A stretch of 64,000 bases of DNA from Pseudoclavibacter sp. AY1H1. Its GTDB lineage: Bacteria; Actinomycetota; Actinomycetes; Actinomycetales; Microbacteriaceae. Below the pieces are notes generated by a model that ran no database searches, was not told the origin of the DNA, and was given only the letters and a program-made list of their open reading frames with translations. The stretch is taken from assembly GCF_002931055.1 (NCBI RefSeq), contig NZ_PSXX01000014.1:1-64000 (forward strand), given 5' to 3'. The translations under genes were made by a program, and so were the position numbers. This document shows positions 1 through 13,172 of the stretch, one piece after another. The stretch's first letter is position 1. The number at the start of each line of letters is the position of its first letter.

Positions 1-16
1 GGCGTGGATGCTCGCG

Positions 17-756
17 CTAGTTGAGTGCCGGGGTGTCGGTCGGGATGACCCCGTTGCCGTACAGGTCGAAGCCGAGGCCGTCGCCGACCTGAAGTGCGCG
101 GCCAGCAGCTCCCCGGAGTGGATGATGTGCTCGCTCGCGGCATGCCTCGCCGCCTCCGCGTCCCTGGCCTTGATGGCGTCGATGATCTGCGTGTGGTCCG
201 CACGGGTCGCCTCGGGCCACCCCTCGATCTGCGCGTAGAAGTTGCGGGGCACGTACTTCGAGAAGAGGGCGACGAGCCAGCGGAGCCTCGGAGCATCCAC
301 GATGTGGTTGAGCAGGTGGTGGAACTCGTTGTTGCGGGCCTCGAGCGCTTCGACGTCCCCGCGCACGGCCGCGGCGAGCAGCTCGTAGTGCAAGGCCTCG
401 AGCACTCGCAGCTGCTCATCGGAGATGCTGCGCGCGGCACGCGCGGCGAGCTCTCCGGCCACGTTGGCGTGCACGAGGAAGACGTCTTCGATGTCCGCAG
501 CCGTGATCGGGTGCACGCGGAACCCCTGGCCGCGCACGCCGTCGACGAAGCCCTCCACGCGGAGCGACTGCAGCGCCTCGCGAACCGGAGTCGCCGACAC
601 CTTCAGCCGCTGCGCGATCTCGTCGATCTGCAGGGATTCCCCGGGCAGAAGCACCCCGGAGATGATGCGCTCTCGGAGGTACTCGGCCGCGAACGAGCGC
701 ATGCTGCCGTAGCGACGGGCTGCGTCTTCGAGGCGTTCGTCGGGTGGGAGCGGCAC
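17..756 (-). CDS. GntR/FadR-family (FCD) transcriptional regulator, apparent frameshift near its 3' end
   Basis: Probable local regulator of the catabolic operon upstream. The N-terminal winged helix is clear (LQIDEIAQRLKVSATPVREA, then LRVEGFV), followed by an all-helical FCD effector domain (roughly residues 85-225). I chose GTG 756 because an in-frame TAA, the stop of the upstream PrpD-like gene, lies at 766-768, so the two genes are nearly contiguous and probably co-transcribed. The HTH frame has no stop before the window edge, but third-position GC in that frame collapses at about position 90. The next frame becomes strongly coding there and ends in TAG at 17-19. I read this as a one-base frameshift near 88-100 (mutation or sequence error). 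If not, the gene simply runs off the left edge with an odd Ser/Thr/Arg-rich tail. Confidence 0.8.
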
Positions 757-765
757 GGGGACATC

Positions 766-2139
766 TTACTGAGCGGGCAATTCGGGCCGCGGCATGGCTT
801 CCATGAGCCCCGCGACGGATGCGGTGCGGTCGCGTTCCACGAGCGCCCAGAGCGCGTTCGCGCACGTCTCGCCGACGAGCCCCCTCGCCTTGGCGTGCAG
901 GTCCTGTCGGGATGCGCGTGCGCCGGGCGAGCCGCGATAGGCGCTCGTCGAAGCCTCGTGCACGGTGCCGTCCGTGAAGGTGACCCGCACTTCGGCGGTC
1001 CAGTCTGCCGGGAACGCCGCTTCGACCGCAGGCGAGGTCACACATCTCACCTTCCTCATGAGCGGGAGCAGCTCGTCCGCGAGCTCCGCCGCCCGGTCGA
1101 ACTGGTCGACGGTCGCGGTGCCCGTGGTGAGCGCGAGCGCTGCGCCGAACGGCATGTTGAACTGCGCATCCACGGCCGATTCGACGCGCAGCTTCGCGTC
1201 TGCTGGCACGCTGACGAGGCGCGCGCCCGCTTCGATAACGGCCACCTCGACGTCGTCGACGTCGTCCGCGGACAGGCCTGGCCGCTGCGAGGCGACGTCG
1301 AGGAGCAGGTCGATGTTGCCGTGCATGTAGCGGCAGCAGGGGTAGAGCTTGATGCTCGTCCGCCAGGCGTATTCGCCTGGCGTGATGGTGCGCACACGAT
1401 CGGGGTGGAAGCCGTCGCCGTAGTTCGCGAGGAACCCGTCGCGTCCTTCGAGGGCCGCGGCCGGCGCGACGAAGCCGACGGCGGCGAGCCGGGTCGCGCG
1501 GATTCCGACGGCCGCGGCGTGACCCGCGTTGAGGCGCTTCGTCCAGGCGCCGTCGGAGAGGAACTCGAGCGAGCCCGCCGCGAGGTTCGAGGCGAGGCCG
1601 ATGGCGTCGACCGTCTGCGACTCGTCGAAGCGGAGGAGGCGGGAGACGGCTGCGGCGGCTCCGATGGCGCCTGCGACTCCGGTCGGGTGGAAGCCGCGGC
1701 CGTAGCTCTCGGCGGCTCCGAGGACGACCCCGATGTCGCACATCACGTCGTACCCGACGACCGCGGCATCGAGGAGGGCACCGTAGCTCGCCTCGTGCTC
1801 TTCCGCCGCGGCGAAGAGGGCCGGGAACAGCACAACGGCGGGATGCAGTGACGCTTCCTCGAAGGTGTCGTCGAGCTCCAGCCCGTGGGCGGTGATGCCG
1901 TTGACGAGCGCCGCATCCTCAGCGGACAGCCGGATCGCAGCCCCGAGCACGGACGACGGCGCAACGTCCGTGGCGAGCCCTGCGTAGGCGTCGCGTGCAG
2001 CTCGGGCCGACTCGCGTCCGCTGCCTCCGAGCGTCACGGCGAGGGCGTCGAAGAGCAGCGCGCGCATCCACGCGGAGCGCTCCCCGCCGAGGTCAACGGG
2101 GCCGAGGGCATGCTGCGCGTAGCTGCGGGCGAGTGACAT
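766..2139 (-). CDS. MmgE/PrpD family protein (457 aa)
   Basis: Member of the family that includes 2-methylcitrate dehydratase (PrpD), cis-aconitate decarboxylase (CadA/IRG1) and iminodisuccinate epimerase. All act on small di- or tricarboxylates. The length is typical, and the family's N-terminal helical half (ALLFDALAVTLGGSGRES) and central GVAGAIGAAAAVSRLLRF / AWTKRLNAGHAAAVGIRA segments are visible. It starts one base after the stop of the CaiB gene and ends ten bases before the GntR start. PrpD-like, CaiB, CitE and MaoC genes also occur together in the Pseudomonas aeruginosa itaconate cluster (PA0878-PA0883). A role as isomerase, dehydratase or decarboxylase on a branched dicarboxylate is therefore likely, but the exact reaction cannot be read from sequence. 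Confidence 0.9.
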   Translation of the reverse strand: MSLARSYAQHALGPVDLGGERSAWMRALLFDALAVTLGGSGRESARAARDAYAGLATDVAPSSVLGAAIRLSAEDAALVNGITAHGLELDDTFEEASLHPAVVLFPALFAAAEEHEASYGALLDAAVVGYDVMCDIGVVLGAAESYGRGFHPTGVAGAIGAAAAVSRLLRFDESQTVDAIGLASNLAAGSLEFLSDGAWTKRLNAGHAAAVGIRATRLAAVGFVAPAAALEGRDGFLANYGDGFHPDRVRTITPGEYAWRTSIKLYPCCRYMHGNIDLLLDVASQRPGLSADDVDDVEVAVIEAGARLVSVPADAKLRVESAVDAQFNMPFGAALALTTGTATVDQFDRAAELADELLPLMRKVRCVTSPAVEAAFPADWTAEVRVTFTDGTVHEASTSAYRGSPGARASRQDLHAKARGLVGETCANALWALVERDRTASVAGLMEAMPRPELPAQ

Positions 2140-2140
2140 G

Positions 2141-3292
2141 TCAGTTCCGTTCTTCGGTGGCGGCGAATTCGTGCCGGATGCGTTCGGTGTGCTCGCCCGT
2201 GTCGGGCACTGGCTTCATCGCCGGCCGGTAGGAGCCTGCTGTCACGGGGGGAAGGAGCGAGCGGGCTGACCCCCCAGGGGTCTCGACCTCGACCCACCTG
2301 TCTCGCTCCGCGAGCTGCGGATGCGCGGAGAACTCCGCCATCGTCCGCATACGCGCGTTGGCGATCGCCAGGGAGTCGAGGCGTCTGATCACCTCATCGC
2401 TCGGGGTCTCGGCGATCGCCGCTCCGATGAGCTCGCTGAGCGCGTCCCGGTTCGCGACTCGATGCTCGTTGAGGCTGAACCTCGGGTCGTCGGCGAGCTC
2501 CGCCGCCCCCAGGACGTCGCGGCAGAAGCCCGCGAACTCCGTCTCGTTCTGGATGCCGATGAACACGGTCCCGTCGGAGGCTTCGAACGGGCCGTATGGG
2601 GCGATGGTGGCGTGGGATGCACCGTGCCGCTGGGGCGGGTGGCCGCCGTACTCGGCGAACAGGTAGGGCTGCTGCATCCATTCGCCGAGCGCCTCGAGCA
2701 TGGAGACCTCGATGCGGTCGCCGACGCCGGTCCGTCCGCGCTGGATGAGCGCGGCGAGCACACCGGAGTACACGTACATGCCCGCCGCGATGTCGGCGAC
2801 GGAGGCCCCGACCTTCGACGGCTGCTCCGGGGTGCCGGTCACCGAGAGGAGGCCGGCTTCGCACTGCACGAGGAGGTCGTAGGCCTTCTTGCGCGTGTAG
2901 CTGCCGCCCGTGCCGTATCCGGAGATCTCGGCGTAGATGAGTCGGGGGTTGCCTGCCGCGAGTGCGTCGTAGCCGAGGCCGAGGCGGTCGAGCGCGCCTG
3001 GTGCGAGGTTCTGCACGACGACGTCGGCGGTCGCGGCGATGCTGCGGAACAGCTCGGCGTCCGCCTCGTCCTTGAGGTCGAGCACAACCGATTCCTTGCC
3101 GCGGTTGAGCCAGGCGAAGAAGCTCGACGTGCCGTGCACGGTGGAGTCGTAGCGGCGCGCGAAGTCGCCACCTGCACGCTCGATCTTGATGACGCGGGCG
3201 CCGAGGTCGGCGAGCTGTCGCGTCGCGAAGGGGGCGGCGACCGCCTGCTCGACGCTGAGCACGGTGATGCCGTCGAGCGGCCTGCCGTTCAT
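2141..3292 (-). CDS. CaiB/BaiF family III CoA-transferase (383 aa)
   Basis: Transfers CoA between carboxylic acids, via a glutamyl- or aspartyl-CoA intermediate. The family hallmarks are present: N-terminal LDGITVLSVEQAVAAPFATR with LADLGARVIKIER, and the segment KKAYDLLVQCEAG containing the catalytic Asp (about residue 141). The length is normal. The start ATG overlaps the stop of the CitE-like gene by 4 bases, indicating translational coupling. Beside MaoC and CitE-type genes it corresponds in position to itaconate CoA-transferase (Ict), so succinyl-CoA:dicarboxylate CoA-transferase activity is a reasonable inference. The substrate is unproven. Confidence 0.92.
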   Translation of the reverse strand: MNGRPLDGITVLSVEQAVAAPFATRQLADLGARVIKIERAGGDFARRYDSTVHGTSSFFAWLNRGKESVVLDLKDEADAELFRSIAATADVVVQNLAPGALDRLGLGYDALAAGNPRLIYAEISGYGTGGSYTRKKAYDLLVQCEAGLLSVTGTPEQPSKVGASVADIAAGMYVYSGVLAALIQRGRTGVGDRIEVSMLEALGEWMQQPYLFAEYGGHPPQRHGASHATIAPYGPFEASDGTVFIGIQNETEFAGFCRDVLGAAELADDPRFSLNEHRVANRDALSELIGAAIAETPSDEVIRRLDSLAIANARMRTMAEFSAHPQLAERDRWVEVETPGGSARSLLPPVTAGSYRPAMKPVPDTGEHTERIRHEFAATEERN

Positions 3293-4128
3293 GATGCTTC
3301 CCCGAGCGCGGCGAGCAGGCGCCGCGCTCGCCGCAGCACGGGTGCGTCGACCATGGCCCCGTCGACCTGCACGGCGCCGGAGCCTGCGCCGACCACGCGG
3401 CGGGCCCAGTCGATCTGGGCGTCGGTCGGCCGGAACGCCGAGGCGATGGCGGGCAGCTGGGCGGGGTGGATGGCGAGCATGCCGCCGAAGCCGAGGGCGA
3501 CGGCGTGCGTGGCGGCGGACTCGACGGCCGCGACGTCGCGGATGCTGGCGCTCGGGGATTCGACTGGGGCTGGTGCCCCGGTGAGGCGCGAGACGAGGAC
3601 CAGCTCGACGCGTGCCGCATCGAGCAGCGAGTCCGCGTCGCCGCCCGCATCGACCGCGAAGTCGAGCGCCCCGAAGGCGAGGCGCACGTCGAGCTCGGGC
3701 TCACCCGGGCCGCGGGTGACGAGCGTCTCCGCCACGCGAAGGCCGCGCACGGTCTCGACGAGCGCGAGGAGCGGCGCGCCACCCGAGGCGTCGCTCACCT
3801 GCCGGAGGTAGGCCCGCGACTCGGCCTTCGGCACGGCGACGCCAGCGAGGGCGCCGGGCGACCTGGCGGACACATCCTCCAGCAGCGCGAGGTCGGGCGC
3901 GCTGTCGCCCGTGTCCGCCGGGTTGACCCGCACGAGCACACGACCGGGTGCGGCCGTGGCCAGCAGATCGCGGATGGCGGTCCGCGCCCGTTCCCGGTTG
4001 TCGGCCGCGACCGCATCCTCGAGGTCGAGGATCACCAGGTTGGCCCCGGAATCCAGCGCCTTCGAGAAGCGGTCGGGCCGATCCCCCGGGACGAAGAGCA
4101 GCGTCTGCGCTGCCGCGAGGGCGCTCAT
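3289..4128 (-). CDS. HpcH/HpaI-CitE family acyl-CoA lyase (279 aa)
   Basis: A TIM-barrel lyase of the citrate lyase beta / malyl-CoA lyase type. Family motifs are TLLFVPGDRPDRFSKAL near the N terminus, the metal-site motif ILDLEDAVAADNRERAR, the VAVPKAES strand and the Glu in LALVETVRGL. It cleaves 2- or 3-hydroxyacyl-CoA such as citramalyl-CoA (to acetyl-CoA and pyruvate) or beta-methylmalyl-CoA (to propionyl-CoA and glyoxylate). The true start is ATG 4128; the same frame stays open further upstream, but that part reads antisense-like and overlaps the MaoC gene. ATGA overlaps at both ends (with MaoC and CaiB) tie it to the operon. Confidence 0.92.
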   Translation of the reverse strand: MSALAAAQTLLFVPGDRPDRFSKALDSGANLVILDLEDAVAADNRERARTAIRDLLATAAPGRVLVRVNPADTGDSAPDLALLEDVSARSPGALAGVAVPKAESRAYLRQVSDASGGAPLLALVETVRGLRVAETLVTRGPGEPELDVRLAFGALDFAVDAGGDADSLLDAARVELVLVSRLTGAPAPVESPSASIRDVAAVESAATHAVALGFGGMLAIHPAQLPAIASAFRPTDAQIDWARRVVGAGSGAVQVDGAMVDAPVLRRARRLLAALGEAS

Positions 4129-4655
4129 CGCTCGACCGCGTCGGGCAGCGACGACTCGTCGGGGCGTGGCGTCGGGGAGACGGGCAGGAACCCGCGTCTC
4201 GAGACCATGAACGTGCGTCGGAAGCTGATGACGACGACGCCCTCCTGGTTGTACCCCTCGGTCGCGACCTCGACGATGCCGACCGAGGAGCGCGAGCGCG
4301 ACTCCCGGAGCGAGAGCACCTTGGAACGCGACGAGATCGTGTCTCCCACGAAGACCGGATGCGGGAGCCGGACCTCGTCCCAGCCGAGGTTCGCGAAGAC
4401 GTTCATGGACAGATCGATCGTCGACTGCCCGGTGACGAGGGAGAGCGTGAAGCAGGAGTTCACGAGGATGCGCCGGAACTCGGTGCTCTCCGTGAGGCGC
4501 GCGTCGACGTGCACCTTCGCGACGTTCTGCGTCATGAGGGTCGACGTCATGTTGTCGTCCTCGGTGACGGTCTTGGAGAACGGGTGGTAGTAGAGGTCTC
4601 CCGGGGTGAAGTCCTCGAAGACCCGCCCCGTCCACCCTTCGACGATCTGCGTCAT
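4125..4655 (-). CDS. MaoC-type hotdog-fold enoyl-CoA hydratase (176 aa)
   Basis: A single hotdog-fold hydratase. The active-site pattern TEDDNM...QNVAKVHVDA (Asp/Asn...His) resembles mesaconyl-CoA hydratase and itaconyl-CoA hydratase (Ich) more than fatty-acid (R)-hydratases. It would add water to an unsaturated C5 dicarboxylyl-CoA and feed the CitE-type lyase encoded just downstream. A ribosome site (GGGAG) lies in the end of the aldehyde dehydrogenase gene, 8 bases away. The stop overlaps the next start by 4 bases. The C-terminal 20 residues are polar and probably disordered. Confidence 0.88.
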   Translation of the reverse strand: MTQIVEGWTGRVFEDFTPGDLYYHPFSKTVTEDDNMTSTLMTQNVAKVHVDARLTESTEFRRILVNSCFTLSLVTGQSTIDLSMNVFANLGWDEVRLPHPVFVGDTISSRSKVLSLRESRSRSSVGIVEVATEGYNQEGVVVISFRRTFMVSRRGFLPVSPTPRPDESSLPDAVER

Positions 4656-4663
4656 GATGCTCC

Positions 4664-6109
4664 CTACAGTTTGACGATGACGGTCTTGGTCTCGGTGTAT
4701 GCGTCGAGCGACTCGACGCCCTTCTCTCTGCCGTAGCCGGACTTCTTGAAGCCGCCGAACGGGTACTCGACGCCGCCGCCCGCCCCGTAGGCGTTGACAT
4801 ACACCTGCCCGGCCTCGACGCGCGCGGCGAGGCGGTGTGCCCTGGAGATGTCGCGGGTCCAGATCGCCGCCATGAGCGCGTAGTCGGTTCCGTTGGCGAT
4901 GCGGACCGCCTCGTCCTCGTCGGCGAAGGTCGTGGCGACCAGCACGGGGCCGAAGACCTCCTTCTGCGCGATCTCGGAGCTCGGGTCGACGTCGGCGATG
5001 AGCGTCGGGGCGAAGAAGGCGCCGGCCCCGTGCCCGTCTGGCACGTGCCCGCCGGTGATGACGCGGCCGTCGGCGCCGTCGACGAGGCCGCGTACCCGGT
5101 CCTGCTGCTTGACGGACACGAGCGGGCCGAGGTCGCGGTCGTCGGAGCCCGGGCCGATGGTCACCCGCTCGAAGGAGGTCTTGAGCTTCGCGAGAAGCTC
5201 GTCGGCGACATCCTCGTGGACGATGAGTCGTGAGCCCGCCGAGCAGGTCTGACCCGCGTTCTGCAGGATGCCCTTCGTGATGAACATCATCGCCTCATCG
5301 AGGTCGGCGTCGGGGAACACGACGTGGGGGCTCTTTCCCCCGAGCTCGAGCACCGCCGGGATCACGTTCTGCGCGGCCGCGGTCGCGATCGACGTACCGA
5401 CCGCAGTCGAGCCGACGAAGCCGATGTGGTCGATGCCCGGATGCTCGGCGAGCGCGGCACCGACCTCGACGCCGATGCCGGTGACGATGTTCAGCACCCC
5501 GGCGGGGATGCCGACCTCGACCGCGAGCTCCGCGATGCGCACCGCGGTGCGGGGCGTCTCGTCGGCCGGCTTCAGCACCACGGTGTTGCCCGTGGCCAGG
5601 GCGGGCGCGACGGCCCGACCGAAGAGCTGCATGGGGTAGTTCCAGGCGATGACGCTGCCGCAGACGCCGAGCGCCTCCCGCCGCGTGTACACGTGGAACG
5701 CCGGATCGACGGGCAAGGACAGGCCGTAGTAGGAGTCGATGGCCCTGCCGTAGAAGGTGAAGTACCGAGCAGCGACCGTCGCATCCGTTCGCGCCTGGGT
5801 GAGCGGCTTGCCCGTGTCCTGCGATTCGAGCAGCGTGAGCTCCTCGCGGTTCGCGATGATGGCCGCCGCGAGCGCCTGCAGCAGGTCGGCGCGCACCTCC
5901 GGCTTGGTGGCGGCCCATCCGGGTTGCGCGGCCCGGGCGGCTGCGACCGCGGCATCCACGTGGGAGGCATCGCATCGCGCGGTGAGGCCGAGCACCTCCC
6001 CCGTCGCCGGGTCGATGTTCTCGTAGCTGCGCTCGGAAGCTACGCGCTCGCCGCCGATGTAGGCCGTCGTCGTGGCAGCTCCCGACGCGGTGTGCACTGA
6101 TTGGGACAT
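4664..6109 (-). CDS. NAD(P)-dependent aldehyde dehydrogenase (481 aa)
   Basis: Oxidises an aldehyde to a carboxylate. It is complete, with the NAD-site WNYPMQLFGRAVAPALATGN, general base Glu in VLELGGKSPHVVF, catalytic Cys in ILQNAGQTCSAGSRL and the C-terminal EVFGPVL. It most resembles the betaine/gamma-aminobutyraldehyde (BetB/PuuC) branch. Its position after a lactonase and an alcohol dehydrogenase parallels blcA of the Agrobacterium blcABC gamma-butyrolactone operon, so the likely substrate is a semialdehyde from an opened lactone. A good ribosome site (AGGAGAG) precedes ATG 6109 and directly abuts a triple 17-bp repeat. Confidence 0.93.
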   Translation of the reverse strand: MSQSVHTASGAATTTAYIGGERVASERSYENIDPATGEVLGLTARCDASHVDAAVAAARAAQPGWAATKPEVRADLLQALAAAIIANREELTLLESQDTGKPLTQARTDATVAARYFTFYGRAIDSYYGLSLPVDPAFHVYTRREALGVCGSVIAWNYPMQLFGRAVAPALATGNTVVLKPADETPRTAVRIAELAVEVGIPAGVLNIVTGIGVEVGAALAEHPGIDHIGFVGSTAVGTSIATAAAQNVIPAVLELGGKSPHVVFPDADLDEAMMFITKGILQNAGQTCSAGSRLIVHEDVADELLAKLKTSFERVTIGPGSDDRDLGPLVSVKQQDRVRGLVDGADGRVITGGHVPDGHGAGAFFAPTLIADVDPSSEIAQKEVFGPVLVATTFADEDEAVRIANGTDYALMAAIWTRDISRAHRLAARVEAGQVYVNAYGAGGGVEYPFGGFKKSGYGREKGVESLDAYTETKTVIVKL

Positions 6110-6120
6110 GTCTCTCCTGG

Positions 6121-6166
6121 AATCTCTGCTGGCCTGGAATCTCTGCTGGCCAAAAATCTCTGCTGG
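6121..6166. repeat. Three tandem 17-bp repeats in the intergenic leader
   Basis: The core AATCTCTGCTGG occurs at 6121, 6138 and 6155, an exact 17-base period. The two left units also share the following GCC. The array lies between the alcohol dehydrogenase stop (6201) and the aldehyde dehydrogenase start (6109), immediately upstream of the ribosome site. It is the only sizeable non-coding gap in an otherwise overlapping operon. Confidence 0.9.
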
Positions 6167-6200
6167 TCGTCGGCGGATGTCGACGTGGTGTCGCCGGTGA

Positions 6201-7331
6201 TCAGTCGTCGATGACGATGCCGGCGCGGGTCACCTGCCGCGCCTCTGCGGCGGCGAGGGCCTCTGGCACCTGATCGAGGGTGTAGTCGGCGTCCACGAGC
6301 GACTCCCACGGGAACTGCGGCGTCGCCTCGATGAAGCGCACGGCCTTGCCGAGCACCTCGAGCGGGTAGCGGATGGCGGCGCGGATCTGCACGCCGGTCC
6401 GGGTGAAGAGGCCAGGGTCGAAGTCCGTGAACTTGTTCGGAGAGATGTTGCCGATCTCGACGACGATGCCGCCGGATCTCGCCGACCGCACCGACTCCGA
6501 GAACGCGGACGGCACGCCGGTGAGGTCGATCACGACGTCACCGCCCCCGCCCGTCGCGTCGCGGACGAGCTGCACGCGTGCCGCGCCGTCAGCGGCCTGC
6601 GAGAGATCGATCGTGTGGTGGGCGCCGAAGTCCTTGACCTTCTCGAGGCGACTCGGCGTCATCTCCGCCACGTAGACCTCCGCCCCCAGCACCGAGGCGA
6701 CGGCGGAGGCGCAGACACCGAGCCCGCCGGCGCCGAAGATGACGACCTTGTCCCCGTAGGAGACCTCCCCGAGGAGGCACCCGTAGTAGACCTGCGACAG
6801 GGCGCAGTTGGCGGAGGAGGCAGCCTTCGAGGTGACGCCGTCCGGCACCTTGTACACGGCCTGGTTCGGGCCCACCGCATAGTGCGTGCCGAACGTGCCG
6901 AAGAAGTGCGGGGCCTCGTCGGCCTGCTTCGACCATCCCGTGTAGGCGTTGCGGCAGATGTTGCCGTGCCCGTTGTTGCACTCGGGACAGCGGCGGCATG
7001 CCTGGAAGTACGTGGCCACGACTCGGTCTCCCACGGCGAGCGGCTCCCCCGCGAAGTCGGTCGTGACGCCGTCTCCGAGGGCGGCGACTCGGCCGACGCC
7101 CTCGTGTCCCATGACGCAGCCGGGTCGAACCAGCGGGTGGCTGCCGTGCAGGATGTGCACATCGGAGCCGCACACGTTGGCGCGGATCATGGACAGCACG
7201 ACCCCGCCCGGCACGGGGGAGGGCACCTCGTAGGACCGGGACGCGGTGCGGTCGATGTCGTCGAGGATCGTCGTCGTGCCGTGCGCCTGCTGCGCATCGG
7301 TCTGGGCGTGCGTGGAAGCTGTCGCAGTCAT
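6201..7331 (-). CDS. Zinc-dependent alcohol dehydrogenase, MDR superfamily (376 aa)
   Basis: A medium-chain dehydrogenase. Catalytic zinc ligands are Cys in ANVCGSDVH and His-Glu in GHEGVG. The structural zinc loop CRRCPECNNGHGNICR carries all four Cys. The Rossmann motif is VIFGAGGLGVCASAVASVLG. It probably oxidises the hydroxy group of a hydroxyacid made by the lactonase, giving a semialdehyde for the next enzyme, like blcB function-wise although from another superfamily. The N-terminal 20 residues are polar and atypical. The start overlaps the FmdB-like stop by 4 bases; 91 bases separate it from the aldehyde dehydrogenase gene. Confidence 0.92.
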   Translation of the reverse strand: MTATASTHAQTDAQQAHGTTTILDDIDRTASRSYEVPSPVPGGVVLSMIRANVCGSDVHILHGSHPLVRPGCVMGHEGVGRVAALGDGVTTDFAGEPLAVGDRVVATYFQACRRCPECNNGHGNICRNAYTGWSKQADEAPHFFGTFGTHYAVGPNQAVYKVPDGVTSKAASSANCALSQVYYGCLLGEVSYGDKVVIFGAGGLGVCASAVASVLGAEVYVAEMTPSRLEKVKDFGAHHTIDLSQAADGAARVQLVRDATGGGGDVVIDLTGVPSAFSESVRSARSGGIVVEIGNISPNKFTDFDPGLFTRTGVQIRAAIRYPLEVLGKAVRFIEATPQFPWESLVDADYTLDQVPEALAAAEARQVTRAGIVIDD

Positions 7332-7777
7332 GCTCCGGCCCCTCTCCTGGTGGTTGTGTTCGCCGTCGAGGCTTGCGATTCCGTTGCGCGAGCCGCGGCG
7401 GCCGTCGCGGAGGCGACCGATGCGCCGATGTCGTCGCCCGCACGCAGCGGGCGCCCCTGGAAGATCCCCTCGTGGGCGAGGATCGGGCGCCGGTCACCGG
7501 CGAGCTCCGGGTACTTGGCCTCGAGCTTCTCGCGCTTCTCGATCTTGGAGCGCCAGTGGGCGACCGCTTCGGGGCGGCCGCGATCGATGCCCTGCCAGCT
7601 GTGCGGCATCTCGGCGCGGCTGGGTCCTGCGTCGGCGGCGCCCCCGATGCGCACCGCGGAGGGGACACGGCTGGTCGCCGTCCCGCATCCGGGGCAGGCG
7701 GGGTTGTCGGCAAGCATCGACTCGATGCCGGCCTCGAAGCGATGGCCTTCCTGGCAGCGGAAGTCGTAGAGGATCAT
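7328..7777 (-). CDS. FmdB-type zinc-ribbon protein (149 aa)
   Basis: The N terminus is a CxxGH...CPxCG zinc ribbon ([18 protein letters not shown], then [12 protein letters not shown]) of the FmdB/zf-RRPF family, named for a putative regulator of formamidase in Methylophilus. The remaining 100 residues are charged and Ala/Thr-rich with no recognised domain, making it longer than a typical family member. It overlaps both neighbours by 4 bases, so it is produced with the lactonase and alcohol dehydrogenase. The function is unknown; a regulatory or metal-handling accessory role is inferred only from the family. Confidence 0.8.
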
Positions 7778-8592
7778 GAGTAGAACCCGTTCGGCGCGAA
7801 GGTGAGCTCCTTCTTCTGCTCTTCGTCGTGGCCGAAGATCACCTGGGCGTCGGTCTCCTGGGCGATGCGGCGGAGCTTCTCGACCGACTCGAGCCACGCG
7901 AGGTTGTTCCACACGATGGCCGCTCCGACCGCGGGCGGCCCCCAGGAGTCGGCGAGGTAGACGGCGTCGGAGGTGAAGATCTTCGTGCCGTCGTTGGGCA
8001 GGTCGACCTTGAGCGACATGGTTCCCCACGTGTGGCCCGGCGTCTGGATGACGCTGACGCCCGGCAGGATCTCGTCGTCACCGGCGATGCCGCCGATGTT
8101 GAGGCCCTTGAAGTCGTCGGGGATGTGCGCGCCCAGGTTGTACCCGGTGATGGTGGCGACTCCGTCGAGCTCGGCCTGGCTCGTGACGATGCGGGTCTTG
8201 CCGTTGTCGAACATCCTGGCGTTGGCGGCGTGGTCGAAGTGCAGGTGCGAGAGCACGAGGATGTCGATGTCGTCCGGGGTGAGCTCGAGCTGCTTGAGGC
8301 TGGAGTCGAGGTAGCCGGTGTCTGCCTGTGGGTCGTCGATGACGGGGAAGAACTCGTCGAAGCCGGTCGGGGCCCAGTGCTCAGCCCAGTTGCGTGGGAC
8401 GCCGGTGTCCCACAGGATGCGCCCGTCCGGGTGGTCGATGAGCACGGCGTGCGTCGGCACCTGACCCCATGCGCGTTCGTCGTGGCGGTGGTCGCGGGTC
8501 TTGATGACCCTGCCTGGCTTGAGCAGCAGCCAGGTGAGGTCGGCTTCCATGGTTCCTGACTCCAGGATGTGGAGCTTGATGTCGTTCGTCAC
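7774..8592 (-). CDS. Metallo-beta-lactamase-fold lactonase, AttM/AiiA-like (272 aa)
   Basis: A dinuclear-zinc hydrolase with the signature [21 protein letters not shown] and a metal-bridging Asp in FTSDAVYLA, as in N-acyl-homoserine-lactone and gamma-butyrolactone lactonases (AiiA, AttM/BlcC). GTG 8592 is the preferred start because AAAGGAG (8601-8607 on this strand) lies 8 bases upstream. A longer frame up to 8691 would cover the promoter. It is the first gene of the catabolic operon, so a nutritional lactone is likelier than a quorum signal, though AHL quenching is possible. The stop overlaps the FmdB-like start. Confidence 0.88.
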
Positions 8593-8670
8593 TTGCCATC
8601 TCCTTTGATTGGCCCAGCGGGGGAAGGCGCTCGGGCTCTGGGTGGCGAGCGTGAGGAGCGCTTCCCGATT

Positions 8671-8699
8671 ACCGTAAGCGAATATATTCAAGGGGTCAA
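8671..8699 (-). promoter_or_regulatory. Predicted promoter of the lactonase operon
   Basis: On the minus strand TTGACC (8694-8699) is followed after 17 bases by TACGGT (8671-8676), a plausible sigma70-type -35/-10 pair about 80 bases upstream of the lactonase start. The lower GC of 8670-8760 also fits a promoter region. Confidence 0.5.
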
Positions 8700-8706
8700 T
8701 ACCTTG
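8689..8706. promoter_or_regulatory. Imperfect palindrome over the -35 region (candidate operator)
   Basis: CAAGG(8-base centre)CCTTG is an 18-bp inverted repeat that covers the predicted -35 of the lactonase operon. It lies in the 214-bp divergent region shared with the acyl-CoA dehydrogenase gene. The FCD regulator at the operon end is the obvious candidate to bind it, but this is inference. Confidence 0.4.
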
Positions 8707-8806
8707 TAGCCCGCTCTCAGCCTTGCTATGTTGGCGAACATCCTAAAAATATTTGACGGCCTGTCGCCCTGTCGCGAGTGCCGCCCCTGATCGAAGGAGA
8801 GCCGCT

Positions 8807-9973
8807 GTGACAAGCCGGACTGCCAGCGACGACAGAACAGCCCTGCGTGCGCGCACTGAAGCGGTCTGCGACGAATTCGACGACACCTACTGGCGTGAGA
8901 CCGACCGCGAGCGCCGCTATCCGCAGGAATTCGTGGACGCCATGGGAGCTGCCGGCCTCCTCTCGGTCATGATCCCCCGCGAGTACGGCGGTGGCGGCTA
9001 CGGCATCGACGCCGCCACGGGAGTCATGGAGGCGATCAACCGCTCCGGAGGACACTCCGCCGCCTGCCACGCGCAGATGTACACGATGGCCGCACTGCTG
9101 CGGCACGGCACCGACGCGCAGAAGGACCGCTACCTCCCCGGCATCGCGGACGGCAGCATCCGCCTCCAGGCGTTCTCGATCACCGAGGACGCCGGCTCGG
9201 ACACCCTCGCCATCACGACCACCGCGACGCCCGACGGCGACAGCTATGTGATCGACGGCCACAAGACCTGGACGAGCCGGTTCGAGGAGTCCGACCTCGC
9301 ACTCGTGCTCACCCGCACCTCCGAGACCCCGAAGGGAACCACGGACGGCCTCACGCTGTTCCTGCTCGACCTTCGCGAGATCCGCGCACAGCAGCCGGAT
9401 GCCCTGCTCGTCACCCCCGTGCGCACCATGTTCAACTACGCCACCAACCAGGTCACCTACCGAAGCGTCCGCGTGCCCGCCGACGCGGTCATCGGACGCG
9501 TCGGCAACGGCTTCCGGCACGTGCTCGACGGCTGGAACGCCGAGCGCATCCTGCTCGCCTCCGAAGCCATCGGCGACGGCTACTGGTTCATCGAGCGCGC
9601 CGTCTCCTACGCCAAGTCCCGCCACGTGTTCGGACGCGCCATCGGCACCAACCAGGGCGTCCAGTTCCCCATCGCCGACGCCTACATGAAGGTTCGCGCG
9701 GCCGAGCTCATGCGGGACGAGGCGACCGCACGCTTCGATGCGGGTGAGCCCGCCGGCGCGGAGGCGAACATGGCGAAGCTGCTCAGCTCCGAAGCGTCCT
9801 GGGCGGCCGCCAACATGTGCCTCGACACGCACGGCGGCTACGGATTCGTCGACGAATACGACGTCGAACGCAAGTTCCGGGAGACTCGGATGTTCTCCGT
9901 CGCACCCATCAACAACAACCTGGTCCGCAGCTTCGTCGCCACGAAGGTGCTCGGGCTGCCGAAATCGTACTGA
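8807..9973 (+). CDS. Acyl-CoA dehydrogenase family protein (388 aa)
   Basis: A flavoprotein that would introduce a 2,3-double bond into an acyl-CoA. It shows the FAD/substrate motif FSITEDAGSDTLAI, the WTSRFEESDLALVL strand and the C-terminal HGGYGFVDEYDVERKFRETR. The usual YEGT(x)EIQR catalytic-Glu segment is absent: the corresponding stretch reads MFSVAPINNNLVRSFVA, and the protein ends in GLPKSY. The start is GTG 8807 with AAGGAG at 8794-8799. It is divergent from the lactonase operon. An acyl-CoA dehydrogenase gene also belongs to the Pseudomonas itaconate cluster, so a methylsuccinyl-CoA-like substrate is possible. Confidence 0.88.
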   Translation: MTSRTASDDRTALRARTEAVCDEFDDTYWRETDRERRYPQEFVDAMGAAGLLSVMIPREYGGGGYGIDAATGVMEAINRSGGHSAACHAQMYTMAALLRHGTDAQKDRYLPGIADGSIRLQAFSITEDAGSDTLAITTTATPDGDSYVIDGHKTWTSRFEESDLALVLTRTSETPKGTTDGLTLFLLDLREIRAQQPDALLVTPVRTMFNYATNQVTYRSVRVPADAVIGRVGNGFRHVLDGWNAERILLASEAIGDGYWFIERAVSYAKSRHVFGRAIGTNQGVQFPIADAYMKVRAAELMRDEATARFDAGEPAGAEANMAKLLSSEASWAAANMCLDTHGGYGFVDEYDVERKFRETRMFSVAPINNNLVRSFVATKVLGLPKSY

Positions 9974-10028
9974 ACCGAGCCCACCCCGGGCCGCAGCATC
10001 CACCGCATGTATCGACGAAGGAGTCAGC

Positions 10029-11138
10029 ATGAACATCCAGGGAGCAGTTCTCGAGGAGATCGGCCTGCCGCGGCCGTACTCGGAGTCGAAGCCGTTGAAG
10101 GTCGTCGAGCTGGAACTCGACGATCCGGGACCCGACGAGGTCCTGATCCGCATCAGGGCGGCAGGGCTCTGCCACTCCGACCTGTCCGTCGTCGACGGGA
10201 ACCGGGTACGGCCGACGCCCATGCTGCTCGGCCATGAGGCTTCGGGGATCGTGGAGAAGGTGGGTTCGAACGTCACCGACCTCGAGATCGGCGAGCAGGT
10301 GACGACGGTCTTCCTCCCCCGCTGCGGTAAGTGCGACAACTGCAAGACCGACGGGAAGCTGCCGTGCACTCCCGGCAGCGTGGCCAATAACGCCGGCTAC
10401 CTGGTCGGCGAGCACTTCCGGCTGCACCGCGACGGGAAGGACATCTTCCACCACGTCGGCGTCTCCGGATTCGCGACGCACGCGGTGCTCAACCGCCAGT
10501 CGGTGGTGCCCATCGGGCACGACGTGCCCCCGGAGATCGCCGCCGTGCTCGGCTGCGCGGTGCTCACCGGTGGCGGCGCCGTCATCAACGCGGGCAAGCC
10601 GCAGGACGGCGACACCGTGATGATCGTCGGCCTGGGCGGCGTCGGGATGGCGGCGCTCCTCACGGCCGTCTCGCTGGAGAAGGGCAAGGTCATCGGCGTG
10701 GACGCGAACCCCGAGAAGCTCACCCGAGCCCTGGAGCTTGGCGCGAGCGAGGTCTACACGCCAGCGGAACTCGCCGAGAACGGCGTGAAGGCCCCCATCG
10801 TCATCGAGGCGGCTGGCCATCCGCGCGCCTTCGAGACCGCAGTCGCCGCTACCGGCGTCGGCGGCACGACGGTCACGGTCGGCCTGCCCTCACCGGATGC
10901 GCGTTCATCGATCGCTCCGCTCGGGCTCACCGGGGAGGCACGGACCATCGTGGGCTCCTACCTGGGATCGGCAGTCCCGGCTCGCGACATTCCCGTCTAC
11001 GCGCAACTCTGGCGCGACGGGAAGCTGCCCGTCGAGGAGCTCATCTCGGGACGCATCCGACTGTCGGAGATCAACGATTCCCTCGACAAGCTCGCCGACG
11101 GGCAGGCCGTGCGACAGGTCATCATCTTCGACGAGTAG
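10029..11138 (+). CDS. Zinc-dependent alcohol dehydrogenase, class III-like MDR (369 aa)
   Basis: A second zinc MDR enzyme. Catalytic site GLCHSDLS and GHEASG; structural zinc loop RCGKCDNCKTDGKLPC; cofactor motif IVGLGGVGMAALLTAV. The long substrate loop is typical of class III / NDMA-type actinobacterial dehydrogenases. AAGGAG (10017-10022) precedes ATG 10029. It follows the acyl-CoA dehydrogenase by 55 bases and is probably co-transcribed. It is not a close duplicate of the 6201-7331 enzyme, so the two may act on different alcohols of the pathway. Confidence 0.92.
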   Translation: MNIQGAVLEEIGLPRPYSESKPLKVVELELDDPGPDEVLIRIRAAGLCHSDLSVVDGNRVRPTPMLLGHEASGIVEKVGSNVTDLEIGEQVTTVFLPRCGKCDNCKTDGKLPCTPGSVANNAGYLVGEHFRLHRDGKDIFHHVGVSGFATHAVLNRQSVVPIGHDVPPEIAAVLGCAVLTGGGAVINAGKPQDGDTVMIVGLGGVGMAALLTAVSLEKGKVIGVDANPEKLTRALELGASEVYTPAELAENGVKAPIVIEAAGHPRAFETAVAATGVGGTTVTVGLPSPDARSSIAPLGLTGEARTIVGSYLGSAVPARDIPVYAQLWRDGKLPVEELISGRIRLSEINDSLDKLADGQAVRQVIIFDE

Positions 11139-11174
11139 AGCGATCGCCGCCGGGCTCCGACCGGGGCGAGCCCC

Positions 11175-11227
11175 AGAGCTGACTTGTGGTCGTCAACCCT
11201 CAAGGTTGACGACCACAACTCAGCTCT
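11175..11227. terminator. Long hairpin between convergent genes (likely bidirectional terminator)
   Basis: Arms 11175-11198 and 11204-11227 pair over 24 bases with one mismatch around the loop CTCAA. There is no U-tract on either strand. It sits between the convergent alcohol dehydrogenase and membrane-protein genes, as expected for a U-less actinobacterial terminator. The remaining 110 bases of the gap show nothing recognisable. Confidence 0.7.
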
Positions 11228-11341
11228 CGGCGTTCAGGGGGACGCGAGCGCCGGGTGCCGGGTGCCGGGCGGCGGGCGGTGGCCCGAGGAGTTACGCGTC
11301 ACTCGGACGCGGGCCCGGACGGCGGACCGCGGGGTTACGCG

Positions 11342-12532
11342 TCACTCGGGCGCGGGCGCGGACGCGGGCTGGAGAGCCTCCGCGGCGGCCACGAGGTCGG
11401 GGTGCCCCGCGAGCCCACGGACCCCGTGCATCGAGTACGTCGCCATCATGATCGCGACCGGCACGTGATCGCCGACGAGCATCAAGGGCTCCGCCCCCTC
11501 GAACTGCAGCACCAGCGACCGCTCGCGCAACGACGGGTAGCTCGCGACGACCCCCGAGTACCAGAACGACAGCCACCGCCCGCCCGCGAAGCAGATCAGT
11601 CGCTGGTTCGAGACCAGGACCCTCGCCGTCTGCCACTCTCGCCACTGCTCCGCGGCTTCTCGCTCAGCGCTCGACCGGGCGGATGCGTTGCCGAGCGCAT
11701 TCACTGCAAGCCCGGCCGCGACGAAGGCCGGGCTGCCGAAGAAGAAGCCGGAGGTGGTGGAGTAGCTGACGTCTCGCCCGTAGTAGCGGGCGTAGGTCGC
11801 TGGCGCATCCTGGAAGAACACCTCGTCAGGTGAAGCGCGGAAGTCCCACACTTCGACGGTCTGCGGGATGCGCTGCTCGAGCAGCTCATCCCGGAAGCGA
11901 AGCGCAGCCGTGAGCCGGTCGTGGGAGTAACGCTGCGCGTCGAGCCGCTCGCGCTCTCGGCTCGTGTACTTGCCGCGGCGGTGCCTGCTCTCGCGGCGAT
12001 TCACGGCGGCCCCTCGGAGCGCCGCGCGGCCAAGGCCCAAGAGGAGGAGGACAGCGAAGAGCATGCATGCCCAGAAGAGCAGCGAAAGGCCGAGTCCCGT
12101 GAAGGAGCGGCCGACCTCGTCGTCCGCTGACGGAGCCCCCTCGAATCCGGAGAGCACCGGGGTGACGATGGCCGCGATGAGCACGAACACGGCCCCGAGG
12201 ACGAGCAGCGGCACGAGCCAGCGCCCTCGCCGCTTCCACCGCTCGGCCTCACCACCCTCACCGTGCTTCCGCGCTGCCCAGCGTCGTTCGACGGCGCGCA
12301 GGAGGTCGACTCGGACGACGTACGTCGACAGGATCACCAGGGCGAGCAGCGCGGCAGGGAGGAGCAGGAAGTACGCGAGTGTGGCGAAGCTGAACGCGAG
12401 CTCGTCCGCCGATTGCGCTATGTGGAGCCGTTCGAGCGACTGGGGTGCAGCACCGAGCCCGAATGCGACCAGGGCGACGAGCAGCCCGAGCCAGATGAAG
12501 CGGCCTACCTGTGAGCCCCGTTTCGTCGTCAT
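11342..12532 (-). CDS. Hypothetical membrane protein with PH-like C-terminal region (396 aa)
   Basis: Not recognised. Four hydrophobic segments lie in the first half (about residues 10-30, 50-75, 105-127, 145-170), followed by a basic stretch (RRESRHRRGKYTSRERERL) and a soluble C-terminal half. The segment ARVLVSNQRLICFAGGRWLSFWYS has the look of a bacterial PH-like domain (membrane-localised sensor or scaffold). That is inference from pattern only. ATG 12532 is chosen because upstream sequence in frame is low-complexity Arg/Pro/Ser. There is no clear ribosome site. Confidence 0.75.
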   Translation of the reverse strand: MTTKRGSQVGRFIWLGLLVALVAFGLGAAPQSLERLHIAQSADELAFSFATLAYFLLLPAALLALVILSTYVVRVDLLRAVERRWAARKHGEGGEAERWKRRGRWLVPLLVLGAVFVLIAAIVTPVLSGFEGAPSADDEVGRSFTGLGLSLLFWACMLFAVLLLLGLGRAALRGAAVNRRESRHRRGKYTSRERERLDAQRYSHDRLTAALRFRDELLEQRIPQTVEVWDFRASPDEVFFQDAPATYARYYGRDVSYSTTSGFFFGSPAFVAAGLAVNALGNASARSSAEREAAEQWREWQTARVLVSNQRLICFAGGRWLSFWYSGVVASYPSLRERSLVLQFEGAEPLMLVGDHVPVAIMMATYSMHGVRGLAGHPDLVAAAEALQPASAPAPE

Positions 12533-12635: not shown

Positions 12636-13172
12636 TCAGGCGGTGACGCCCACCTCGCCGGTCGCGGTCGCATCGGCGACGGCGCGCCTGCTGGCGCGGG
12701 CACCGAGGGTACCGCGGAACCACAGCGCGCCCGCGACCGCGAGGCAGACGAGGAAGGCGCCGAGTGCACTCACGACGGGCACGAGCGCCTCGCTCGGTCC
12801 TGCCACGAACGGCATGAAGGCGACGACGAAGAACACGACGACGGCGATGGGCGGCGAGAAGAGCAGCGGCAGCGTCCAGGTCGCGAAGAGCGGTGTCTCG
12901 CGCAGTGCGATCCACCCGAACGTGGTGCCGACGGCGTACACGGCGTAGGCGATGAGACCGACGATGAACGCGAGGAGCACAAGCGGCACGAGCGTGCCGA
13001 GGAAGAACTGGTAGGCGTCGCGCCCGAACAGCACCATGACGTCGTCGCTCGCGACGGGCGTGGACGTGAGCCGTCGCAGCGAGAGGGCGATGACGCCGAC
13101 GATGCCGAGCACGGCGACGACGGGCGCGGCGATGAGTGGCAGTATCCAGCGCAGGTGCTCCATGCCGCTCAA
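12636..13172 (-). CDS. Hypothetical multi-pass membrane protein (178 aa)
   Basis: No family recognised. Four strongly hydrophobic helices are evident, for example WILPLIAAPVVAVLGIVGVI, FFLGTLVPLVLLAFIVGLIA, PPIAVVVFFVVAFMPFVAG and VVSALGAFLVCLAVAGAL, with a short polar C-terminal tail. An alternative start is Met 13163. It lies 103 bases upstream of the other membrane gene on the same strand. Confidence 0.75.
   Translation of the reverse strand: MSGMEHLRWILPLIAAPVVAVLGIVGVIALSLRRLTSTPVASDDVMVLFGRDAYQFFLGTLVPLVLLAFIVGLIAYAVYAVGTTFGWIALRETPLFATWTLPLLFSPPIAVVVFFVVAFMPFVAGPSEALVPVVSALGAFLVCLAVAGALWFRGTLGARASRRAVADATATGEVGVTA

Follow-up and report, generated by a model that had tools for sequence, protein, structure and literature searches.

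A putative gamma-lactone oxidation cassette joined to C5-branched-dicarboxylate genes beside a GntR regulator in Pseudoclavibacter sp. AY1H1

Organization of the island

We analysed a 64,000 nucleotide stretch of Pseudoclavibacter sp. AY1H1 (contig NZ_PSXX01000014.1, from position 1), hereafter the window. Positions 1-11138 carry an island of eleven genes that may link the oxidation of a gamma-lactone to the degradation of methylsuccinate or itaconate. Nine of the genes form a minus-strand run encoding, in order of transcription, a lactonase (LACT), a zinc ribbon protein (ZnR), an alcohol dehydrogenase (ADH1), an aldehyde dehydrogenase (ALDH), a MaoC protein, a CitE-like protein, a CaiB protein, an MmgE/PrpD protein (PrpD) and a GntR regulator. 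The remaining two, encoding an acyl-CoA dehydrogenase (ACAD) and a second alcohol dehydrogenase (ADH2), form a divergent pair on the plus strand. All enzyme families named in the original prediction (lactonase, alcohol and aldehyde dehydrogenase, MaoC, CitE, CaiB, PrpD and ACAD) were found as open genes; the zinc ribbon gene, the GntR gene and its putative operator had been overlooked.

The minus-strand run is tightly coupled. There are 4 bp overlaps at four junctions (LACT/ZnR, ZnR/ADH1, MaoC/CitE and CitE/CaiB), and gaps of 8 bp between ALDH and MaoC, 1 bp between CaiB and PrpD and 9 bp between PrpD and GntR; the exception is the 91 bp ahead of ALDH, after ADH1. The 8 bp gap is the junction of the lactone half with the dicarboxylate half, and the gene coordinates agree with the earlier claim that a lactone half and a half resembling the Pseudomonas itaconate cluster lie in one coupled run with ACAD divergent. 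From this spacing the run is very likely one transcription unit. On the other strand ACAD and ADH2 are 55 bp apart. The 214 bp between LACT and ACAD (8593-8806) make up the divergent promoter region. It should be noted that the start codons of LACT and ACAD are our choice: in each case we took a GTG that has a Shine-Dalgarno-like sequence, and alignments with many LACT relatives begin at residue 1. The start of the window is the end of its contig, C6, in a 4.2 Mb genome of 25 contigs.

The lactone half

LACT (7774-8592, minus strand), the first gene of the operon, encodes a predicted gamma-lactonase of the metallo-beta-lactamase fold, with a Pfam Lactamase_B domain and an HxHxDH motif. The closest solved structures are GcL-type lactonases. 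With NCBIfam models the protein scored 159 bits for AhlS (cut-off 475) and 98 bits for the curated AttM/BlcC model (cut-off 390), under cut-off in both cases. Its identity to seven Brevibacterium copies (L031-L037) is 78-84%.

A peptide-pattern scan of 84,980 species genomes gave 72 loci with LACT relatives. An alcohol dehydrogenase of some kind lies near LACT in 61 of these; in overlapping counts, 50 loci have the ADH2 type (at least 30% identity), 7 the ADH1 type (at least 40%) and 11 an iron-type alcohol dehydrogenase (Fe-ADH). An aldehyde dehydrogenase occurs in 33 of the 72 and a D-2-hydroxyglutarate-dehydrogenase-like protein in five. ADH2, a zinc alcohol dehydrogenase (10029-11138, plus strand), is thus of a type that accompanies LACT in many genomes: its 50 relatives lie within 5 kb of the lactonase gene, 38 of them at 61-82% identity, three at 50% and nine at 30-35%. 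ADH1, also a zinc alcohol dehydrogenase (6201-7331, minus strand), would oxidise the hydroxy acid released by the lactonase; it is 73-79% identical to proteins of six Brevibacterium loci and 47% identical to the alcohol dehydrogenase of a Rubrobacter MaoC-PrpD-ACAD cluster.

The FmdB-like ZnR (7328-7777, minus strand) scored slightly under the cut-offs of Zn_ribbon_8 (31.7 bits, cut-off 34.4) and TIGR02605 (29.7 bits, cut-off 31.3). A zinc ribbon gene lies on the same strand within 2.5 kb of LACT in 65 of the 72 relatives. The protein may be a dedicated partner of this metallo-lactonase family.

ALDH (4664-6109, minus strand) is not of the succinic semialdehyde dehydrogenase (SSADH) type. It scored 440 bits with the BADH model and 343 bits with the SSADH model (cut-off 646), both under cut-off; other models outscored SSADH, and the protein lies outside the SSADH-like clade. 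In a tree of fetched sequences the ALDHs of the window and of Brevibacterium (L031-L037) make up a separate clade, and for the Brevibacterium protein too (L031, SSADH 322 bits) a model other than SSADH scores best. The ALDHs of four other LACT cassettes that were scanned (L045, L046, L051 and L062) are SSADH-like, with 540-560 bits against the cut-off of 646. These findings point to conversion of gamma-butyrolactone to succinate as the usual role of LACT cassettes. Since the ALDHs of the window and Brevibacterium differ from them, the aldehyde in the window is probably a semialdehyde other than plain succinic semialdehyde, and we propose methylsuccinic semialdehyde.

In Amycolatopsis-type loci (L066-L068, L070, L072, L086 and L095) an Fe-ADH gene lies between LACT and the zinc ribbon gene, and several of them have a D-2-hydroxyglutarate-dehydrogenase-like protein next to this set. 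The Fe-ADH of LACT cassettes reached 208 bits against 4-hydroxybutyrate dehydrogenase and 231 bits against sulfoacetaldehyde reductase, both under cut-off; the best model for the FAD/Fe-S protein is D-2-hydroxyglutarate dehydrogenase YdiJ, also under cut-off. The pair may serve as a transhydrogenase route for 4-hydroxybutyrate.

The dicarboxylate half

Pseudomonas aeruginosa and Cupriavidus necator are reported to degrade methylsuccinate and itaconate by means of a CoA-transferase, a MaoC protein, a CitE protein, an ACAD and an MmgE/PrpD protein (PMC9875883, PMC12290011). All five gene families are adjacent in the island. As yardstick we used a plasmid-borne P. aeruginosa copy (L139) whose gene order fits the published cluster, and not the assayed PAO1 proteins themselves; identities to the L139 proteins are 56% for CaiB, 51% for ACAD, 42% for CitE and 34% for PrpD. 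For the PAO1 counterparts of ACAD and CaiB, activities have been published (PMC12290011, PMC9875883). The sequences fetched for the trees were filtered by E-value, coverage and number of rows, and reference rows duplicate some of them.

ACAD (8807-9973, plus strand), a proposed (RS)-methylsuccinyl-C4-CoA dehydrogenase, shares a clade with the P. aeruginosa protein (support 97/99). It carries a relocated glutamate signature, NAER without GEGT, found in all seven clade members aligned and in neither of two other ACADs. In ACAD and six aligned clade relatives, Glu stands at the NAER position and AP at the canonical GEGT-type Glu site. By analogy with isovaleryl-CoA dehydrogenase, we take the NAER glutamate to be the catalytic base. 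CaiB (2141-3292, minus strand) groups with the P. aeruginosa CoA-transferase (support 100/100), and four paralogues from its own genome fall outside this clade; no NCBIfam model reached its cut-off. We propose that it is an itaconate/methylsuccinate CoA-transferase.

The Ich/RipB-like MaoC protein (4125-4655, minus strand) is a proposed mesaconyl-C4-CoA/itaconyl-CoA hydratase. It is 49% identical to an annotated RipB of Paraburkholderia; with 176 amino acids versus 275 in the P. aeruginosa protein it weakens the likeness to Pseudomonas. The CitE-like protein (3289-4128, minus strand) is a proposed (S)-citramalyl-CoA lyase. In trees both group with relatives from the stand-alone gene set described below as module B.

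PrpD (766-2139, minus strand), a proposed methylsuccinate isomerase, has all seven reported residues of the P. aeruginosa isomerase (His88, Glu91, His102, Tyr148, His152, Lys202 and Lys266 in P. aeruginosa numbering), which is weak evidence because other rows of the tree keep five to seven of them. It belongs to a separate clade made up of the window, L121 (a module B locus) and a Rhodococcus copy.

The GntR regulator and a proposed shared operator

The last gene of the run (1-756, minus strand) encodes a GntR/FCD regulator whose stop codon lies past the contig end. Over bases 1-80 the reading frame extends beyond the FCD domain as an unusual tail up to the contig end; bases 12-80 weakly match (79%) the next block of a congener, and the true end of the gene may be at that junction.

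In the divergent promoter region, a TTGACC hexamer on the minus strand (8699-8694) is followed in the spacer by the palindrome GAATATATTC (8680-8689), and we infer a promoter with an operator. GntR would bind this palindrome as a repressor. The palindrome is the only RAATATATTY of the genome assembly, searched on both strands of this palindromic pattern, and the reversed control gave 0 sites. When one mismatch was allowed the window held 2 sites versus 0.09 expected; a second, imperfect site, AAAAATATTT (8745-8754, plus strand), lies on the ACAD side.

We looked for the motif AATATATT in the 350 bp ahead of LACT or MaoC in 91 loci (L037 has no upstream sequence). Of the 12 loci with a GntR, 10 have it, against 0 of the 79 others; a GntR was counted from 40% identity and 100 bits upwards, a limit that we set ourselves. 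Over 1.63 Mb of loci with at least 50% G+C, 15 of the 18 sites are upstream of module genes. A locus fetched after the motif had been defined (L204) carries it twice between MaoC and ACAD, together with a GntR of 46% identity; seven other loci fetched with it gave neither AATATATT nor a GntR match. The GntR proteins of the window, Brevibacterium, module B and two Pseudonocardia loci stand apart from ten other GntRs (97/96), with a branching order among them that the tree leaves unsettled. Both modules may have answered to similar effectors before they merged. In the Pseudonocardia loci (L080 and L083) the operator may differ.

Two modules that also occur alone

In Brevibacterium the lactone genes occur alone as module A (L031-L036), organized as ADH2|LACT-ZnR-ADH1-ALDH-GntR, where the bar marks the divergent promoter. 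Module A shares ADH2, LACT, ZnR, ADH1, ALDH, GntR and the motif with the island, but no MaoC, CitE, PrpD or ACAD of the island types adjoins it, and in L033-L036 ADH1 is on the ADH2 side of the promoter, unlike in the window. In other Micrococcales the dicarboxylate genes occur alone as module B, ACAD|MaoC-CitE-CaiB-GntR (L120 and L204). A third locus, L121, has a TRAP transporter and GntR-CaiB-MaoC|ACAD-CitE, followed by another CaiB, a class I fumarase and a PrpD (58%). The C5 scheme of PMC12290011 (Fig. 6 legend) includes class I fumarase as mesaconate hydratase, and the setting of the L121 PrpD next to the fumarase, two CaiBs and the transporter is fitting for C5 dicarboxylates. These three loci share ACAD, MaoC, CitE, CaiB, GntR and the motif with the island, L121 also PrpD, but have no such lactonase, alcohol or aldehyde dehydrogenase in the stretch fetched. 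Loci L116-L119 have MaoC-CitE-CaiB with a GntR, and only a distant ACAD (28-30%).

The arrangement in the window is that of module B, except that LACT-ZnR-ADH1-ALDH stands between the promoter and MaoC, ADH2 follows ACAD, and PrpD precedes GntR. For the lactone enzymes the nearest relatives are in Brevibacterium daeguense (LACT 84%, ADH2 82%, ADH1 and ALDH 73%; GntR 51%), and the second half is closest to the Micrococcales loci (ACAD at most 71%, MaoC at most 69%, CaiB at most 66%, PrpD 58%). Among the loci fetched, the halves were found apart and in partial parallels, and the full set in this window only.

Counting the window's own genome each time, LACT was found in 2 of 299 genomes of the family (E <= 1e-70), PrpD in 2 of 394 of the class (E <= 1e-90), MaoC in 14 of 299 of the family (E <= 1e-35; 0 of 5 other genomes of the genus in the sample) and ACAD in 14 of 396 of the order (E <= 1e-110). 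No lactonase of the LACT family was found in 20 fetched MaoC loci (13 from the family and 7 from the class, some cut by contig ends), nor in eight fetched ACAD loci (G433 was already in the set, and G991, G852, G783 and G846 were left out).

Insertion of the island

A synteny comparison showed that the island is missing at this site in all five congeners fetched. Homology to the window starts at 11,380-11,382 in three of them and at 12,636 and 13,477 in the other two, and no island proteins were found in the 15.6-16.0 kb fetched from each. In congener G584 a ClpB-like protein is 97% identical. In one of the five (L160) the adjoining block corresponds to the beginning of C14, another contig of the window's genome, so that the island is flanked by two stretches of chromosome that are neighbours in this relative; later pieces of L160 are found in C14 and C2. 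The left end of the island coincides with the contig end. On synteny, in place of base composition, the island appears to be an inserted, acquired catabolic unit. Base composition, tried as a sign of foreign origin, gave no signal (69.3% G+C in the island versus 68.9% in the rest of the window).

Near the right border, directly past ADH2 (11162-11237), there is a hairpin repeat resembling repetitive extragenic palindromes, and contigs C3 and C14 and a congener have similar stretches. P. helvolus has a LACT-ZnR-ADH2 set at another place, without the remaining island genes (L038, LACT 71%).

Parallel linkages in other lineages

In five Saccharopolyspora loci (L076-L079 and L081) LACT-ZnR is divergent from PrpD-ACAD-GntR, and in L076 and L081 a CaiB of the itaconate CoA-transferase (Ict) clade is next in line. 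The ACAD of L081 has the canonical Glu, the motif is absent from these loci, and no MaoC or CitE of the island types was found near their LACT genes. On a plasmid of Rhodococcus rhodochrous GD02 (L143), CitE-PrpD-CaiB-MaoC-ACAD are found with an alcohol dehydrogenase 59% identical to ADH2, a protein resembling flavin-dependent or Baeyer-Villiger monooxygenases (FMO/BVMO) and two esterase-type hydrolases; this cluster is a possible counterpart for cyclic ketones or terpenoids. A Rubrobacter plasmid has MaoC-PrpD-ACAD with an alcohol dehydrogenase (47% to ADH1) and an ALDH. On a Deinococcus taeanensis plasmid (L142), PrpD, ACAD, CaiB, MaoC and ALDH are found with a two-part thiamine pyrophosphate (TPP) enzyme and PxpA, possibly a related pathway that decarboxylates a 2-oxo acid.

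Among genomes with a LACT locus, 14 of 30 queried have an Ict-type CaiB (E <= 1e-80; L035 and L037 were outside the query), a count confounded by kinship. All five Brevibacterium module A genomes queried have a CaiB of 50-56% identity elsewhere in the genome, within PrpD-CaiB-ACAD (L183, L186 and L187), with a class I fumarase relative (L181 and L182) or alone among the families searched (L184 and L185). Because of the parallels in Saccharopolyspora, GD02, Rubrobacter and Brevibacterium, alcohol/aldehyde oxidation was probably joined to the CoA module on several occasions. A combination of the gamma-lactonase with all of the CoA genes was seen in this window only.

Proposed pathway and alternatives

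We lean, by a modest degree, towards the view that the island is a gamma-lactone oxidation cassette spliced into a C5-branched-dicarboxylate cassette, with one GntR repressor, one divergent promoter and a flow from methyl-gamma-butyrolactone via methylsuccinate to acetyl-CoA and pyruvate. In brief, LACT would open a methyl-substituted gamma-butyrolactone to methyl-4-hydroxybutyrate, ADH1 or ADH2 would oxidise this to methylsuccinic semialdehyde, and ALDH would yield methylsuccinate. Lactones methylated at the alpha or the beta position would both end as methylsuccinate, and an isomerase would suit mixed enantiomers; PrpD would interconvert these. CaiB would form methylsuccinyl-C4-CoA, the point at which itaconate would enter, ACAD would oxidise it to mesaconyl-C4-CoA, MaoC would hydrate this to (S)-citramalyl-CoA and CitE would cleave the latter to acetyl-CoA and pyruvate. 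Gene content, order, coupling, the palindrome with its distribution and the ACAD and CaiB clades are read from the sequence, whereas we infer every reaction, which lactone is opened, joint transcription of the run and the action of GntR as a repressor at the palindrome.

A flow of C5 dicarboxylates had been suggested by the original prediction, and it is favoured by the module architecture, the GntR and its operator, the trees, the ALDH type and the parallel linkages. Of the two lactones suggested, methyl-gamma-butyrolactone leading to methylsuccinate fits better than tulipalin A (alpha-methylene-gamma-butyrolactone) leading to itaconate, because ACAD and PrpD match the gene set reported for the methylsuccinate cluster (PMC12290011) and itaconate needs neither. 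Of the two sets of end products, acetyl-CoA and pyruvate via C4-CoA esters fits, but propionyl-CoA and glyoxylate is without specific support and is disfavoured because ACAD belongs to the C4-CoA dehydrogenase clade and the best model of CitE is RipC. A route from mevalonolactone to 3-hydroxy-3-methylglutaryl-CoA (HMG-CoA) via CaiB, raised by succinate-HMG CoA-transferase structures that match CaiB, was dropped since the Ict clade is a better match for CaiB and the remaining genes do not suit such a route.

Several findings weigh against the pathway from methyl-gamma-butyrolactone. The best NCBIfam models of MaoC and CitE are RipB/Ich and RipC/Ccl, with 167 and 153 bits, under their cut-offs of 340 and 375. 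MaoC gave no BLAST match to the P. aeruginosa MaoC at 1e-5, the CitE tree does not settle the place of CitE beside the P. aeruginosa lyase, and PrpD, 34% identical to the P. aeruginosa protein, is in another clade. Three AATATATT sites lie elsewhere (L089 twice, L123 once); the MaoC loci L116 and L118 have a GntR but not the motif, and the Pseudonocardia LACT loci L080 (GntR 39.8%) and L083 (37.7%) are without it too, so that with these two counted the motif is found in 10 of 14 loci versus 0 of 77. The Fisher value of 1e-11 overstates the case because of kinship among the loci and because the motif was defined on the same loci that were used to test it. No MaoC, CitE, PrpD or ACAD at 40% identity or more was found in the flanks (up to 10 kb) of the 72 LACT relatives, and the full fusion is thus a single case here. 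The Brevibacterium CaiB loci have no motif and no MaoC or CitE match at 1e-3, and the island contains no uptake gene. With MaoC and CitE under their cut-offs, a distant PrpD and only one case of the full arrangement, it is the architecture, the operator and the clade membership that carry the proposal.

The two halves could also be independent pathways that share the island and its regulator, one leading from gamma-butyrolactone to succinate and one degrading itaconate or methylsuccinate, with no flow between them. Each module does occur alone, and other LACT cassettes are butyrolactone-like, with an SSADH-like ALDH or with Fe-ADH and a D-2-hydroxyglutarate-dehydrogenase-like protein. We nevertheless regard this as unlikely, as the genes are interleaved within one operon, the ALDH is not SSADH-type and parallel linkages exist in other lineages. 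More improbable still is a pathway in which tulipalin A is opened and oxidised to itaconate that enters at CaiB. The lactone chemistry would be identical in kind, and L116-L119, with MaoC-CitE-CaiB but no P. aeruginosa-type ACAD or PrpD, fit an itaconate core; such a pathway would need neither ACAD nor PrpD, yet the island has both, and among the open-access matches listed, the one paper with the word tulipalin is, judged by its title, a polymer-chemistry review.

We see a similarly small chance for a larger or differently branched lactone, for example from the breakdown of a cyclic ketone or terpenoid, that would give an alkylsuccinate and then acetyl-CoA and a longer 2-oxo acid. This would agree with the Rhodococcus GD02 cluster, where the same CoA genes accompany an FMO/BVMO-like enzyme and esterase-type hydrolases, with the Deinococcus PrpD, ACAD, CaiB and MaoC alongside a TPP enzyme and an ALDH, and with the separate clade of PrpD. 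On the other side, ACAD, CaiB and MaoC are closest to module B relatives, one of which lies beside a class I fumarase. It is very improbable that LACT is a quorum-quenching lactonase of N-acyl homoserine lactones (AHL) whose position is incidental: AHL lactonases make up its nearest solved structures and its top-scoring NCBIfam models, but every such model among those listed scores under its cut-off, and alcohol dehydrogenase genes accompany most of its relatives.

Implications and comparison with known systems

The natural origin of methylsuccinate is poorly known, and an operon in which lactone oxidation leads into methylsuccinate genes offers a specific aerobic source that can be tested. 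More tentatively than for the pathway itself, we propose a dedicated aerobic route in which methyl-gamma-butyrolactone would be an environmental source of methylsuccinate and in which an actinobacterial GntR with a AATATATT operator would coordinate lactone opening with C5-dicarboxylate CoA chemistry. If true, methylsuccinate would have a source besides the anaerobic reduction of itaconate, and the PrpD clade of the island would be a second kind of methylsuccinate isomerase. Known methylsuccinate isomerases are reported to be 96.2% in Pseudomonadota (PMC12290011); in contrast, the five-gene set is here in an actinobacterium, with a different PrpD clade. Two catabolic cassettes would have merged where the regulator type and operator were already common to both. 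An island that appears to put the lactone and methylsuccinate/itaconate genes of a soil-type actinobacterium under one switch suggests a way for bacteria to make and use methylsuccinate.

In the open-access literature, mostly titles and abstract openings, we found no gamma-lactone oxidation joined to methylsuccinate or itaconate degradation, and nothing there contradicts the earlier statement that no operon with both halves has been described. A partial precedent is the itaconate operon of P. aeruginosa, which includes a small VOC protein reported to be a 2-hydroxyparaconate lactonase (PMC9875883).

The P. aeruginosa PA0878-PA0883 cluster and the C. necator cluster resemble the island in having CoA-transferase, MaoC, CitE, ACAD and MmgE/PrpD together (PMC9875883, PMC12290011). 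The likeness to the Pseudomonas itaconate cluster, as originally claimed, holds for the ACAD and CaiB clades but is looser for the MaoC and CitE proteins, both under the RipB and RipC cut-offs. The island further differs from the P. aeruginosa cluster in its shorter MaoC, its distant PrpD, its actinobacterial host and the added lactonase, alcohol and aldehyde dehydrogenases, and it has a GntR where a LysR gene lies beside the P. aeruginosa cluster. The blcABC (attKLM) system of Agrobacterium is a metallo-lactonase operon reported to convert gamma-butyrolactone via the hydroxy acid and the semialdehyde (PMC5924552). The claimed likeness to it stands in that an HxHxDH metallo-lactonase shares one operon with an alcohol and an aldehyde dehydrogenase. 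The island departs from it in that LACT is under the AttM cut-off and shares about 32% identity with its nearest plasmid-borne lactonases of the AttM type, in that the ALDH is not SSADH-type, and in that its product is proposed to enter a CoA pathway.

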